From contig JAHBWG010000021.1 in assembly GCA_019637095.1 (NCBI GenBank), positions 1 to 64,000 of the forward strand: a DNA stretch of 64,000 bases, in the 5' to 3' direction. Shown one piece after another: positions 43,035 through 48,422 of this stretch. Origin of the DNA: Sandaracinaceae bacterium. Lineage in GTDB: Bacteria; Myxococcota_A; Polyangia; Polyangiales; Sandaracinaceae. The notes below the pieces were generated by a model. That model searched no databases. It saw nothing but the letters and a program-made list of their open reading frames with translations, and was not told where the DNA came from. Each line of letters begins with the position of its first letter. The first letter of the stretch is position 1. The position numbers and the translations under genes are program-made.

Positions 43035-43102
43035 CCCCGATGCGTACCACGGCTCGCCCACCGGATGACACGCGCCGCGCTCGGCGCGTAGCATCGCGCG
43101 CC

Positions 43103-44848
43103 GTGATCTCGTACGCCCCGATCGAGGAGCGCTGGTACGCCCCCCTGCTCCGCCCCGTGCGACCGGCGGTCGACCGCGCGCTCGCCGAGCTCGCGCCGCC
43201 CGGCGATCCATGGGCCCTGCCGCGCACCGGCCTCGGCGGCGCGCTGGTGCTGCACGTCGCGCGCGGCTTCGGCCTGCGCCGCGGGCGCCGCGCCGCGCGC
43301 GTCGCGGTGGCCGCGCTCGAGGGGTACAACCAGCGGGTCCACGTCGGCGAGCCGACGATCGAGGAGCGCGCGCGCTGGCTCGCGCGCGACCTCGAGTGGG
43401 CGCGCGAGACGTGGGAGTCGCTGCTCGAGCACGACGGCGCGATCGTCGACCGCGTCGTCGATCGGCTCTTCGGCGCGAACGGCGAGACGTGCGATCGCAC
43501 GATCCCGGAGGCGGTCCTGTTCCTGCGCGCGGCGGTCGCCGCGGGCGCGATCGTCGGCGAGGTGCCCGAGGGCGTGCACCACGCGCTCGACGAGCACGCG
43601 ACGTGGGTGGGGCTGAGCTGGGAGGCGCACCGCGGGACCCTCGGCCCGGAGGGCTGGTCGGGCGCGCTCGCCGCGGTCGGGCGGCGCGATCCGTTCCCCG
43701 AGGAGCCGGGCGCACGCGCGCGCGACGGCGCGCTCCGCGCGCTCGCCGAGCTGCCGCGCCGCCCTCCGGTCGGGCTGCTCGAGGCGGCGCTCGGGCGCGC
43801 GCTCGTCGAGGCGCCGCCCAAGGCGCGGCACCCGCGCGCGTGGGTGCCTCTGCGCGCCCCGGCGCCTCGCGCCGCCGCGGCCGCGCCGGCGCCCGACGAC
43901 GTGCTCACGGCGTTCGCGGCGCGCTGGCGGGCGCCGATCGAGGGCGCGCTCGCTTCGCTCGGCGAGAGCGGCTCCGACGCGCTCGCGAGCGCGGTCGCGT
44001 ACCTGCTCGGCCAGGGCGGCAAGCGGGTGCGCCCGCTCCTCGTGCTCGCCGCCGCGGAGGCGTGCGGCGGCCGCGCCGAGCGCGCGCTCCCCGCCGCGGC
44101 CGCGGTCGAGTGGCTCCATCAGGGCTCGCTCGTGCTCGACGACATCATCGACGACGCGCACCTGCGCCGCGGCGCGCCGCCGCTCCACGCGGCGACGTCG
44201 GACGCGTTCGCGACCGGCATCACCGTGTTCCTCTTCGCGCGGGTCCTGCGGCGCACCCACGGGATGCACCCCGACATCCGGCGCCACCTCGCGCGCGCCG
44301 CGGTCGCGCTCGCGGAGGGCGAGCGCCTCGAGCTGCACCACACCGGGATGACGCACGTCTCGTTGACCGGCTACTACCGCATCATCGAGGCGAAGACCGC
44401 GCGCCTGTTCGGCGCCGCCGCGCGCGCCGGCGCGCTCTCGGTCGACGCCCCTCCGCGCGCCGCCGCCGCGCTCGGGCGCTACGGGCGCGAGCTCGGGCTC
44501 GCGTTCCAGGTCGTCGACGACCTGCTCGACTACTTCGGCGACGAGGCCGCGCTCGGCAAGGCGCCGGGGACGGACCTGCGCGCGGCGAAGGTCACGCTGC
44601 CGCTGATCCTCCTGCGCGAGCGGCTCGGCGCCGCGGACCGGCGCCGGCTCGAGGCGGCCCTCGGGGACGGCGGAGCCTTCGGCTGGGTGCGCGCGGCGCT
44701 CGACGCGCACGAGGTCGAGGCGGCCTGCCGCGCGCGCGCCGCGACCCACACCGAGCGCGCCCTCGACGCCGCGCGCGCGCTCCCCGCGGGGTCCGGCCGC
44801 GACGTGCTCGAGGCCCTCGCGCTCGCGCTCGGAGGGCGGCGGTCGTGA
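43103..44848 (+). CDS. Polyprenyl synthase with an extra N-terminal IDS-like half
   Basis: A 581-residue protein from GTG 43103, about twice the usual length for a prenyltransferase. The C-terminal half (about 275-570) is a complete isoprenyl diphosphate synthase: GGKRVRPLLVL, first Asp-rich motif DDIIDD (346-351), second DDLLD (472-476), GTDLRAAKVTLP. The N-terminal 240 residues resemble the same helical fold (HHALDEHATWVGLSWEAH against AALGRYGRELGLAFQVVDD) but show no Asp-rich motif, so they look like a degenerate duplicate or regulatory half. It condenses C5 units into a polyprenyl diphosphate. It heads an operon; the next start overlaps its stop (GTGA). Confidence 0.88.
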   Translation: MISYAPIEERWYAPLLRPVRPAVDRALAELAPPGDPWALPRTGLGGALVLHVARGFGLRRGRRAARVAVAALEGYNQRVHVGEPTIEERARWLARDLEWARETWESLLEHDGAIVDRVVDRLFGANGETCDRTIPEAVLFLRAAVAAGAIVGEVPEGVHHALDEHATWVGLSWEAHRGTLGPEGWSGALAAVGRRDPFPEEPGARARDGALRALAELPRRPPVGLLEAALGRALVEAPPKARHPRAWVPLRAPAPRAAAAAPAPDDVLTAFAARWRAPIEGALASLGESGSDALASAVAYLLGQGGKRVRPLLVLAAAEACGGRAERALPAAAAVEWLHQGSLVLDDIIDDAHLRRGAPPLHAATSDAFATGITVFLFARVLRRTHGMHPDIRRHLARAAVALAEGERLELHHTGMTHVSLTGYYRIIEAKTARLFGAAARAGALSVDAPPRAAAALGRYGRELGLAFQVVDDLLDYFGDEAALGKAPGTDLRAAKVTLPLILLRERLGAADRRRLEAALGDGGAFGWVRAALDAHEVEAACRARAATHTERALDAARALPAGSGRDVLEALALALGGRRS

Positions 44849-46455
44849 TCGCCCCCGTCGAGCTCGCCCGCCGCCTCGGGCTCTGGGTGATCGGGCTGTG
44901 CGTGATCGTGTTCTTCTACGGCCTGGGCAAGCTCGAGCTCGTGCGCGACCCCGTCGAGCTGCCGCTGACCGCCCTCGATCACGCGATCCCGTTCGTGCCG
45001 TGGACCGTCTGGCTCTACGGCACGATCACGTGGGCGAGCCTGGCCGCGTGGCTCACCTACCGCGAGCGCGCCGACGGCGCGCGCCTCATGACGGCGATCG
45101 GGCTCGCGTCGGCGCTGTGCGCGCTCGTGTTCGTGCTCTGGCCGACGACGTTCCCGCGCGAGCTCTACCCGCTGCCCGAGGGGCTCGGCGCGCGGACGCT
45201 CGCGGAGCTGCGCGAGCTGCGCGACGACGACAGCCCGAGCAACTGCTTCCCCTCGCTGCACGTCGCGCTCGCGTGGGCGATCGCGCTGACGTGGGCGTCG
45301 TGGCTGCGGCCCCGCGCGCTCGCGGCGCTCCCGATCGGGTGGGCGCTCGTGGTGAGCGTCACGACGATCACGACCAAGCAGCACTACGTGATCGACGTGC
45401 CGGCGGGGCTCGTCGTCGGCGTGCTCGCGTTCGTCGGCGCGCGGCGGGCGGTGCCGGGGACGCGCGCGACGCCGTTCTTCCTGCGCATCGGCGAGCGGCT
45501 CGAGCCGCGGTGGGACACGCACCGCGCGCGCCTCGCGAAGCTGCGCGAGACCGTCGAGGCCGGGCAGTGGTCGCTCGACGCGATCGCGTGGCCCAAGGGC
45601 CCGCTGGCGCCGCTCGATCCGACGCTCGTGCGGCTGATCAACGAGCTCATCTACGTCGAGGAGATCGCGGGGATGAACTTCGCGATCCTCGCGCGCGCGT
45701 CGCGCTCGGACGACCTCGCGACGCTCTACCGGCTCTTCGCCGAGGAGGAGCGGCGCCACGCCGACGGGCTGCGCCGCGTGCTCGCGCTGCACGAGGCGCC
45801 GCTCAACCCCCCGGGCCTGGGCAACTCGCTGGTGCTCGACGAGTTCGACGCGCTCGACCCGGAGTCGGTGGGCGACGTGTACCTCATCGCGACCGCCAAC
45901 CCCGTCTTCGAGACGATGCTCGACGCGGGCACGGTGCCGTTCCTGCGCACGCACCCGGCGCTCGCGAGCGACTGGTTCGAGGACTTCGTCAAGCGCATCA
46001 CGCGCGACGAGGCGGCGCACCTCGCGGTGAACTGGATGGTGATCCGCGAGGCGGGCGAGCGCTTTGGCGGCCTCCGCGGCCTGCGCCTGTTGCTCAACCC
46101 GAGCATCTTCCGCGGCATGATCGCGGTGCCGTTCATGTCGCTCGACGTGTACTCGCTCGCGCACCGGCTCGGCTACCGGTTCGAGACGCTGCTGCCGGCG
46201 TTCGGCAAGCTCTGGCGCTTGCACCGGCGCTACCCCGAGCTGCGCGCGTTCCCGCTCTGGTGGGTGTTCCGCGTCTTCACCGCCGCCGGCGCGGTCGCGA
46301 CGATGGTGACGGCCGGGCTCGTGCGCGCGGGCCTGCTCTTCGTGCGCTTCTGGACCGCGTTCACGCGCGCGACCGACCTCGTCGCGCGGCTCGCGTGGGG
46401 TCGCGGGCTCTTGCGGCGCCGGGGGCTGCCCGCGCCCGGGCGCGCGGTGGGCTGA
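44845..46455 (+). CDS. PAP2 phosphatase fused to a ferritin-like di-iron domain
   Basis: A 536-residue membrane protein starting at GTG 44845, overlapping the previous stop. Residues 1-205 hold about five membrane helices with the PAP2 motifs PSLH (His139) and TTKQHYVID (His180, Asp184), like the PAP2_3/Aur1 subgroup that handles lipid-linked phosphates. Residues 260-410 form a four-helix domain with a di-iron pattern: Glu272/Glu273, EEERRH (Glu302, His305), Glu356 and DEAAH (Glu389, His392), similar to AurF-like oxygenases. A C-terminal hydrophobic tail follows. The two activities in one chain suggest removal of phosphate from, and oxidation of, an isoprenoid or lipid made by the upstream synthase. 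I know no named family with this layout. Confidence 0.82.
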   Translation: MIAPVELARRLGLWVIGLCVIVFFYGLGKLELVRDPVELPLTALDHAIPFVPWTVWLYGTITWASLAAWLTYRERADGARLMTAIGLASALCALVFVLWPTTFPRELYPLPEGLGARTLAELRELRDDDSPSNCFPSLHVALAWAIALTWASWLRPRALAALPIGWALVVSVTTITTKQHYVIDVPAGLVVGVLAFVGARRAVPGTRATPFFLRIGERLEPRWDTHRARLAKLRETVEAGQWSLDAIAWPKGPLAPLDPTLVRLINELIYVEEIAGMNFAILARASRSDDLATLYRLFAEEERRHADGLRRVLALHEAPLNPPGLGNSLVLDEFDALDPESVGDVYLIATANPVFETMLDAGTVPFLRTHPALASDWFEDFVKRITRDEAAHLAVNWMVIREAGERFGGLRGLRLLLNPSIFRGMIAVPFMSLDVYSLAHRLGYRFETLLPAFGKLWRLHRRYPELRAFPLWWVFRVFTAAGAVATMVTAGLVRAGLLFVRFWTAFTRATDLVARLAWGRGLLRRRGLPAPGRAVG

Positions 46456-46457
46456 GC

Positions 46458-47231
46458 GTGCGCGTCGCGCCCCTCGCCCTGCTCGCGCTCGGCTGCGGTG
46501 AGGCCGCGGCGTCGACCGCCGGCGTCACGCGCGGCGCTCCGTCGGACCGCGCGCTCTGGGTGCTCACCTACAACGTCAACTTCGAGCGCCCGGACGACGC
46601 GACGGTCGCGGCGATCGAAGAGGCGGACGCGGACCTCGTGTTCCTCGAGGAGACGCACGAGCGCTGGGAAGCCTCGATCCGCGCGCGGCTCGGCGCGCGC
46701 TACCCGCACGTGACGTTCCGCCACGCGCCGGCCGAGGGCGGGCTCGCGATCCTCTCGCGCTACCCGTTCGCCGAGGTGCGCCACGGGCTCGCGGAGGGCG
46801 GCGCGTTCCCGTCCTGGCGGGTGACCGTCGCGACGCCGCTCGGCGCGCTCGACGTGCTCCTCGTGCACCTCCACCCGCCGCTCGACGAGGACGGGCGGCT
46901 CGTCACCGGCTACTTCACGACGTCGGAGCGTCGCCTGCGCGAGCTGCGCGCGCACCTCGGCGCTCGCGCGCCCGACCTCGTGCTCGGCGACTTCAACGAG
47001 GGCGAGGGCCCGGCGCTCGAGCACCTCGCCGCGCTCGGCCTGCGCGACGCGCAGCGCGCGTGGCCGCCCGTCGAGGACACGTGGTCGTGGGACGTGGGCG
47101 CGACCGAGCTCGTGGGCTGCCCGGACCACGTCTTCGTGGGGCCCGCGCTCGCGATCACCGCCGTGCAGGTGATGCCGCGCGGCGGCTCCGATCACCGCCC
47201 GCTCCGCGTCGCGCTCGAGCGCGCGCGATGA
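46458..47231 (+). CDS. Endonuclease/exonuclease/phosphatase-fold protein
   Basis: GTG 46458 lies 2 bases after the previous stop. The 257-residue product begins with a lipobox-like stretch (LALLALGCGE), then the EEP fold: VLTYNVNFE (Asn), FLEETHERW (Glu, metal ligand), HLHPP, LGDFNEG (Asp-x-Asn) and GGSDHRPL (Asp-His). All active-site cues are present. Members cleave phosphodiesters or phosphomonoesters of nucleic acids, inositol lipids or sphingolipids; being exported and in a lipid operon, it may be a phospholipase-type enzyme (inference). Confidence 0.88.
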   Translation: MRVAPLALLALGCGEAAASTAGVTRGAPSDRALWVLTYNVNFERPDDATVAAIEEADADLVFLEETHERWEASIRARLGARYPHVTFRHAPAEGGLAILSRYPFAEVRHGLAEGGAFPSWRVTVATPLGALDVLLVHLHPPLDEDGRLVTGYFTTSERRLRELRAHLGARAPDLVLGDFNEGEGPALEHLAALGLRDAQRAWPPVEDTWSWDVGATELVGCPDHVFVGPALAITAVQVMPRGGSDHRPLRVALERAR

Positions 47232-47734
47232 GCCGCACGACGCGGGGCGCGGTGTGGATCGTGCGCGCGGCGCTCGCGCTCGCGCTCGGGGTCGAGCTGC
47301 TCGTGCTGCACTTCCCGGTGCCCGAGGCCGTCGATCGCCCGCGCCAGCGCGACGTGCGCGGCGCGTGGGAGGCCGCCGCGCGGGTCGGCCGCGCCGGCGG
47401 CCGCTTCGTCCCCGCCGCGCTCGAGCCCGTGCTCGAGCCGATCCCCGGCGACAAGGCGGCCCACTTCCTCTTGTTCCTGCCGCTCGGCGTGCTCGCGGCG
47501 GCCGAGCGGCGGCTGCACGGCCCGCTCGGCGTGCGCCGCGCCGCGCTCGTCACGTTCGCGCTCGTCCTCTACGCGGTCGCGGGTGAGCTCGCGCAGGTGT
47601 TCGGCCGCCAGGCGGAGGTGCTCGACGCGCTCGCCAACGCGCTCGGCGCGATCGCGGGCGTGAGCTTCGTCGCCGTCTTCACTCGGCCACCGCGCGCGCG
47701 GCCGAAACGTGGCCGCGGGGTGCCCGAGCCGTGA
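47228..47734 (+). CDS. VanZ-like membrane protein
   Basis: A 168-residue product whose ATG overlaps the previous stop (ATGA). About four hydrophobic segments and the VanZ cues are visible: IPGDKAAHFLLFLPLG (Asp, His) and YAVAGELAQVFGRQAEVLDA (Glu, Asp). VanZ-like proteins are membrane proteins of uncertain job; the name comes from a teicoplanin-resistance gene and does not imply resistance here. As the last gene of the operon it may act on the same lipid product. Confidence 0.85.
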   Translation: MSRTTRGAVWIVRAALALALGVELLVLHFPVPEAVDRPRQRDVRGAWEAAARVGRAGGRFVPAALEPVLEPIPGDKAAHFLLFLPLGVLAAAERRLHGPLGVRRAALVTFALVLYAVAGELAQVFGRQAEVLDALANALGAIAGVSFVAVFTRPPRARPKRGRGVPEP

Positions 47735-47792: not shown

Positions 47793-48422
47793 ATGAGAGC
47801 TTGGATGGGATGGATGCTGGTCGGCGCGCTCGCGCTCGGCACGGCGGGATGTGACGACGACGCGATGGGCGAGACCGACGGCGGCGGCGCCATGGACGCG
47901 GGCGGTGGCGGCGGCACCGACGGAGGCGGCGCGGGGAGCGACGCGGGCGAGACGCCAACGGACGCGGGCGAGACCGACGCGGGCGAGACCGACGCGGGCG
48001 AGACGCCGATGGACGCGAGCACGACGCCGACGGACGGCGCCGTCCCGCCCACCGACGGCGGCACCGCGGGGCGGATCGCCTGCGGCGACACCACCTGCGA
48101 CGCCGCGACGCAGATCTGCTGCACGACCGGGGGCCTCGGCGGCGCGACGCCGATGTGCATCGGCGCGAGCGAGACGTGCGCGGGCGCGCCCTCGTCGTGC
48201 GACGGCCCGGAGGACTGCGAGGGCGCGGCCGTCTGCTGCGCGCGGTTCTCGGGGGGAACCGTCACCGCCGAGTGCACCACGGATTGTGGGCTCGCGTCGT
48301 CGGAGCTCTGTCACACCGCGGCGGACTGTAGCGACTCCATGGACATGTGCTGCCCGTTCATGTTCGGCGGTGTCTCGTCGAGTAGCTGCCGGCGCGTCTG
48401 TGGCATCGGGCCGATGCCGTAG
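47793..48422 (+). CDS. Lipoprotein with Asp/Gly repeat linker and Cys-rich domain
   Basis: A 209-residue product with GGAGG 7 bases before ATG 47793 and a lipobox (ALALGTAGCD). The linker of about 65 residues is made of Gly runs and TDAGE units, three of them identical at DNA level. The C-terminal half is Cys-rich with repeated CC pairs (CDAATQICCTTGG, EGAAVCCARFSGG, SMDMCCPFMFGG), a disulfide-bonded module common in this group's surface proteins. Function unknown. A strong hairpin follows directly. Confidence 0.85.
   Translation: MRAWMGWMLVGALALGTAGCDDDAMGETDGGGAMDAGGGGGTDGGGAGSDAGETPTDAGETDAGETDAGETPMDASTTPTDGAVPPTDGGTAGRIACGDTTCDAATQICCTTGGLGGATPMCIGASETCAGAPSSCDGPEDCEGAAVCCARFSGGTVTAECTTDCGLASSELCHTAADCSDSMDMCCPFMFGGVSSSSCRRVCGIGPMP
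47961..48005 (+). repeat. Three 15-bp tandem repeats in a lipoprotein linker
   Basis: GACGCGGGCGAGACC occurs three times in a row (last base differs in the final copy), with a further isolated copy at 47940. Each unit encodes DAGET. It extends the linker between the lipid anchor and the Cys-rich domain. Confidence 0.85.

Follow-up and report, generated by a model that had tools for sequence, protein, structure and literature searches.

Do four closely packed genes, for a polyprenyl synthase, a fusion of a PAP2 membrane domain to a ferritin-like di-iron domain, an EEP-superfamily enzyme and a VanZ-like membrane protein, serve one lipid pathway? The question is raised by a 64,000-nucleotide stretch of DNA from a Sandaracinaceae bacterium (GenBank assembly GCA_019637095.1, contig JAHBWG010000021.1, positions 1 to 64,000; termed the window), whose genome comprises 9.25 Mb in 197 contigs. 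A preliminary description of the window had proposed that the four genes form one translation-coupled unit that builds, dephosphorylates and oxidises an isoprenoid or a lipid. Our analyses indicated that the four-gene set is made up of two conserved pairs, beyond what chance would produce: the synthase and fusion genes (pair 1) and the EEP and VanZ-like genes (pair 2). The genes are located as follows.

43103-44848, + strand: polyprenyl synthase gene (581 residues, GTG start)
44845-46455, + strand: PAP2-di-iron fusion gene (536 residues, GTG start)
46458-47231, + strand: EEP-superfamily enzyme gene (257 residues)
47228-47734, + strand: VanZ-like membrane protein gene (168 residues)

The four reading frames and their junctions were as first described, with a GTGA overlap of 4 nucleotides between synthase and fusion, a 2-nucleotide gap between fusion and EEP and an ATGA overlap of 4 nucleotides between EEP and VanZ-like gene. 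Third-position GC was 0.96 to 0.99 in all four, as expected of real genes in the window, and the reading frames were further supported by orthologues in other families, in which the sequence is conserved and most of the overlaps recur. The family assignments (polyprenyl_synt, PAP2_3/PAP2, Exo_endo_phos and VanZ) each exceeded the Pfam gathering score; the ferritin half fell below these scores and yet was substantiated by its fold and invariant ligands, as described below.

Profile searches were performed on 377 Myxococcota genomes. The N-terminal domain of the synthase was detected in 13 of these, and long matches to the fusion were found in the same 13 genomes (best stretch, E ≤ 2e-102; split in two in Enhygromyxa salina), while five further genomes matched the PAP2 half of the fusion only. 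The overlap of the two sets had a hypergeometric p of ~2e-24 when genomes are treated as independent, which they are not. The 13 genomes were spread patchily over four families, and within the window's own class the synthase and fusion occurred together in the same six genomes. Relatives that could be named by sequence were the Myxococcota Plesiocystis pacifica and Enhygromyxa salina. Pair 1 was adjacent in the window, in genomes G155 and G534, in P. pacifica and in the genomes of family f50 where the contig allowed, nearly always with a 4-nucleotide overlap. In a lake metagenome-assembled genome (MAG), the two genes were on different contigs whose ends share ~28 bases, read as an ATGA overlap. 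In E. salina SWB007 (L046, 2259-4358), only pieces of the synthase remained, one N-terminal (~62 residues) and one C-terminal, and the reading frame of the fusion was broken; either the two genes have decayed in concert or this part of the assembly is in error. These results supported a functional link between synthase and fusion that is stronger than had been claimed. In the tree, the window fusion grouped with those of Nannocystaceae (100/100) and not with the fusions of Sandaracinus, which belongs to the same family as the window; this placement suggests that the gene was transferred horizontally or that the paralogy is old.

Relatives of the EEP enzyme were common in the phylum (37/377 genomes at E up to 1e-30), and a tight subgroup was restricted to six genomes, partly by construction as the profile was built from those six. 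The EEP gene was followed by a VanZ-like gene in all six, nearly always with a 4-nucleotide overlap, and no VanZ neighbour was found beside any of 24 wider EEP relatives examined. The EEP-VanZ pair was present in 6 of the 13 pair 1 genomes and in none of the 364 others. Pair 2 adjoined pair 1 in the window, where the pairs are co-directional, and in G466, a genome of another family with all four genes within a few kilobases, where they are convergent; the fusion and VanZ genes of G466 (L138, 2219-2280) overlap tail to tail by ~60 bases. Four more genomes carried all four genes as two separate pairs, with EEP-VanZ on another contig or away from pair 1. The four genes were found together outside the window genome, and the proposal hence passes the refutation test set in the preliminary description. 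They do not make up one invariant operon: in most genomes that have it, EEP-VanZ is not linked to pair 1.

The EEP enzyme matched PF03372 (Exo_endo_phos) with 71.5 bits against a cut-off of 24.5, and its catalytic set was intact, residues N39, E65, D178, N180, D245 and H246 being invariant in six orthologues. The N-terminus of the window enzyme is lipoprotein-like, and several orthologues started with a lipoprotein-like signal (e.g., LVGC or LAAC, read by eye). The window VanZ-like protein matched PF04892 with 31.8 bits against a cut-off of 30.1; three orthologues from family f50 scored below this cut-off (20.6 to 26.8 bits).

The whole is best explained, with chances that we judge to be about even, by a three-step isoprenoid-lipid module of two enzymes, those of pair 1, joined by pair 2 in some of the genomes. 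We infer the substrate, the order of reactions and their chemistry to be as follows. A cytosolic synthase would make a medium to long all-trans polyprenyl diphosphate through its catalytic C-terminal half, and the decayed N-terminal half would serve as an internal small subunit with a role in folding or in chain length. On the periplasmic face of the membrane, the PAP2 part of the fusion would then take phosphate off this product, or move a phosphate head group; on the cytoplasmic face, the di-iron half would hydroxylate, desaturate or otherwise oxidise the dephosphorylated chain, with electrons from an unlinked donor. Pair 2 may also take part in the window genome and in five relatives, through the VanZ-like protein and a lipoprotein-like EEP enzyme that would act in the periplasm as a phosphodiesterase or phosphatase. 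Such building, dephosphorylation and oxidation of an isoprenoid fits the intact active sites. That the set constitutes a long-chain isoprenoid-lipid pathway of Myxococcota, running from a pseudo-heterodimeric synthase to a two-site membrane protein with optional periplasmic EEP-VanZ processing, is advanced more tentatively, as a possibility.

The synthase carries two domains, the first of which, ~255 extra N-terminal residues, had been overlooked in the preliminary description.

43103-43867, + strand: N-terminal domain, best read as a decayed synthase fold without Asp-rich motifs (profile alignment and PDB profile matches)
43886-44845, + strand: C-terminal catalytic synthase domain (GGKRxRP; DDIID, residues 346-350; DDLLD, residues 472-476)

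The synthase matched PF00348 (polyprenyl_synt) with 190.6 bits against a gathering score of 27, and the two DDxxD motifs and GGKRxRP were intact in all nine full orthologues checked. Octaprenyl and decaprenyl synthases were the nearest solved structures to the C-terminal domain, and the residues preceding the first Asp-rich motif were small, namely G, T or A followed by S, a feature of long-chain enzymes. From its nearest relatives, the product looks long-chain and is predicted to be a medium to long all-trans chain. The C-terminal domains formed one clade (99/98) beside other synthase paralogues of the same genomes. Identity with a family 2 encapsulin cargo polyprenyl transferase (NF041169) was rejected, with a score of 170 against the NCBI cut-off of 450.

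Alignment of the N-terminal domain to a diverse set of synthases was collinear over 224 columns with a score of 32.5, as compared to 13.7 ± 2.6 (maximum, 23.3) for 150 column shuffles and 14.8 for the reversed control; it was the more diverse synthase set and the shuffle control that made this likeness clear. When a profile of 12 sequences was compared to all PDB sequences, the top five matches were all trans-prenyl diphosphate synthases (E, 0.035 to 0.78), each weak singly and together pointing to a decayed synthase domain. Direct profile comparison of the N- and C-terminal domains was weak. No DDxxD motif preceded residue 346 of the window synthase, and each orthologue holds only two. Pfam searches with the N-terminal domain of 12 members at E up to 1 yielded no match to any small-subunit or other family, and an AlphaFold model of the synthase built from three sequences was too poor in this domain to reveal a fold. 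The best reading of this remote homology is a decayed copy of the synthase fold. A decayed N-terminal and a catalytic C-terminal domain would make the synthase a one-chain counterpart of the heteromeric synthases.

The fusion likewise carries two domains.

44845-45459, + strand: PAP2_3 membrane domain, residues 1-205 (PF14378, 60 bits; PF01569, 40 bits; both above cut-offs)
45490-46284, + strand: ferritin-like di-iron domain, residues 216-480 (AlphaFold model, structure matches and ligand conservation)

A PAP2 match was obtained for all 10 fusion orthologues, in which residues R105, S137, H139, H180 and D184 were invariant. Six membrane passes are suggested by hydropathy and by the charges of the loops, an arrangement that would put the PAP2 motifs in the periplasm and the di-iron half in the cytoplasm: loops assigned to the cytoplasm had K/R to D/E values of 2.3/1.0, 2.9/1.0, 2.3/0.0 and 3.0/2.3, and loops bearing the PAP2 motifs had no excess of K/R over D/E. 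The PAP2_3 family includes Aur1-type enzymes. The PAP2 half could, alternatively, be a phosphotransferase that places a head group onto a polyprenol, with the EEP enzyme trimming phosphodiesters and the di-iron half modifying the resulting polyprenyl-anchored head-group lipid. PAP2_3 was indeed the best-scoring family, there was a weak match to phosphoinositol dihydroceramide synthase (12.7 bits), and a phosphodiesterase-type EEP enzyme is linked; however, an equally weak match to undecaprenyl-diphosphate phosphatase opposes this, neither match passing its cut-off, and the EEP partner is missing from most pair 1 genomes. We consider head-group transfer unlikely.

The di-iron half was modelled by AlphaFold with a pLDDT of mostly 70 to 94, and its best VIA match was the class Ib R2 protein 4dr0 (Z, 16.9; 3.9 Å over 239 residues). 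R2, R2lox and bacterial multicomponent hydroxylases were tied (Z, ~16 to 17; root-mean-square deviation, 3.2 to 4.6 Å; ~230 to 260 residues), and Foldseek ranked acyl carrier protein (acyl-ACP) desaturases first; as the structure matches tie, oxidase, desaturase and hydroxylase were not told apart. Residues E273, E302xxH305, E356 and E389xxH392 were invariant in 10 orthologues, and the four-helix fold together with this E, ExxH, E, ExxH ligand set places the domain among ferritin-like di-iron proteins. Among named di-iron families, the best Pfam match of the ferritin-like half was Rubrerythrin, below the cut-off (18.3 bits versus 22.8), and an AurF match was seen only in distant relatives (20.3 versus a cut-off of 29.6).

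All-against-all comparison around the loci revealed no recurrent neighbours beyond the four genes; shared neighbours reflected synteny within a genus or belonged to widespread families, kinases among them. In the lake MAG (L048, 1597-3858), the genes that follow the fusion, with an overlap, encode an S-adenosylmethionine (SAM) methyltransferase as well as a KAS III-like enzyme, which were not met together at the other loci, and a leucine carboxyl methyltransferase-type gene (PF04072) lies directly 3′ of the fusion in G554 (L109, 7456-8307). These methyltransferases belong to two different families. Distant relatives of the di-iron half are encoded on Mycolicibacterium plasmids (L059, 5209-12849; L060, 5118-12759) in a conserved gene row that holds a short-chain dehydrogenase/reductase (SDR), three Baeyer-Villiger-type flavoenzymes, an alpha/beta hydrolase and a cytochrome P450. 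The methyltransferases and the flavin monooxygenase and P450 contexts fit an oxygenated product, as weak evidence.

The synthase might instead provide a quinone, or another prenylated aromatic compound, with its side chain, and the di-iron half would hydroxylate that compound. Other long-chain-type paralogues from these genomes form the sister group of the synthase clade, and aromatic hydroxylases (2inn) fall within the di-iron fold. Sandaracinus also makes farnesylated benzimidazoles, the sandacrabins, with the prenyltransferase left unassigned (PMC9306752), a weak link. Sandacrabins are, however, C15 compounds while the synthase looks long-chain, no UbiA-type aromatic prenyltransferase or quinone gene was recurrent near pair 1, and a PAP2 phosphatase would waste the diphosphate required for prenylation, making this a distinctly unlikely explanation. 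The ferritin-like half might also work in redox or iron handling in the manner of rubrerythrin, protecting or regulating the membrane enzyme and not oxidising a lipid. Such a role seems highly improbable: although Rubrerythrin was the weak best match in Pfam, the best structural matches were to catalytic R2, R2lox, desaturase and hydroxylase folds over ~240 residues, the Mycolicibacterium relatives lie among Baeyer-Villiger-type flavoenzymes, SDR and P450, and the 3′ methyltransferases of two genomes fit an oxygenated product. Chance adjacency of the four genes in a gene-dense genome, for which the location of EEP and VanZ away from pair 1 in most genomes might speak, is scarcely credible, being already unlikely for pair 1, against the exact synthase-fusion co-occurrence across four families, the repeated 4-nucleotide overlaps and the restriction of EEP-VanZ to pair 1 genomes.

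Several observations weigh against the isoprenoid-lipid module. The pair 1 genes are 14 kb apart, on the same strand, in relatives that are probably Sandaracinus, the one genus in which they are not adjacent, and the two enzymes would be expected to co-occur also if each acted on a different molecule of a single pathway. In most lineages (Nannocystaceae, Sandaracinus and family f42), no EEP-VanZ adjoined pair 1, and neither a reductase nor a ferredoxin is encoded in the four-gene unit. The PAP2 half of the AlphaFold model was of low confidence, and hence the fusion topology is drawn from hydropathy and charge only. Finally, the fusion is predicted to have one active site on each face of the membrane, so that the intermediate must cross it.

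Two further features flank the genes in the window.

43065-43094, + strand: sigma-70-like promoter match (ATGACA-18-TAGCAT), just upstream of the synthase
47793-48422, + strand: gene for a Cys/Asp-rich putative lipoprotein, 58 bases 3′ of the VanZ-like gene

The promoter match was the only one in a consensus scan upstream of the synthase (0.0 expected) and is weak evidence. The putative lipoprotein had no Pfam match, and no terminator-like site was found between its gene and the VanZ-like gene. PADLOC models matched none of the four proteins, and the reading as an anti-phage defence system was rejected on this basis.

The component enzymes of the set are of known kinds. In the open-access literature, most subscription journals being outside this scope, no description was found of the fused synthase, of a PAP2-di-iron (ferritin-like) fusion or of their pairing; combinations of VanZ with polyprenyl and of polyprenol with diiron returned nothing relevant, and, in agreement with the preliminary description, no pathway of this four-gene composition was encountered. 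If the proposal is correct, some soil and marine predatory bacteria carry a new isoprenoid-lipid pathway, in a phylum known for unusual natural products, with two architectures for which no counterpart was found, a polyprenyl synthase of fused catalytic and decayed domains and a PAP2-di-iron oxidase fusion. Such a synthase would offer a simple model of how non-catalytic subunits set chain length, and the VanZ-like link would provide one context for the function of that family. As the synthase and fusion genes co-occur exactly, the pathway can be tested in carriers that grow in culture (Plesiocystis pacifica and Sandaracinus).

Each part of the set may be compared to a known system. The PAP2 half has the Pfam match and catalytic residues of PAP2_3/PAP2 lipid phosphatases and phosphotransferases but is fused to a di-iron domain. 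The di-iron half shares the fold and E/ExxH/E/ExxH ligand set of R2lox, acyl-ACP desaturase and related ferritin-like di-iron oxidases, whereas identity to these is only 8 to 16%, no family model passes its cut-off, and the domain is membrane-attached via the PAP2 half. The window proteins of pair 2 match the EEP (DNase I/sphingomyelinase-like) superfamily and the VanZ-like family above Pfam cut-offs; unlike these families at large, the tight EEP subgroup is translation-coupled to a VanZ-like protein, and only in pair 1 genomes. The catalytic motifs of the synthase are shared with its closest solved relatives, the octaprenyl and decaprenyl diphosphate synthases (5ze6, 3wjk and 3mzv), from which it differs in its extra N-terminal domain and its own separate clade. 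Heteromeric trans-polyprenyl diphosphate synthases, such as HexA/HexB of Micrococcus luteus, HepS/HepT of Bacillus subtilis and the small and large subunits of mint geranyl diphosphate synthase (GPPS SSU/LSU) (PMC7839719), likewise combine one catalytic unit with two Asp-rich motifs and a non-catalytic relative of the same fold without them. Their small subunit is a separate polypeptide that matches a known small-subunit family, neither of which holds for the N-terminal domain described here; in the synthase of the window, both units are fused in one chain with the decayed domain first.

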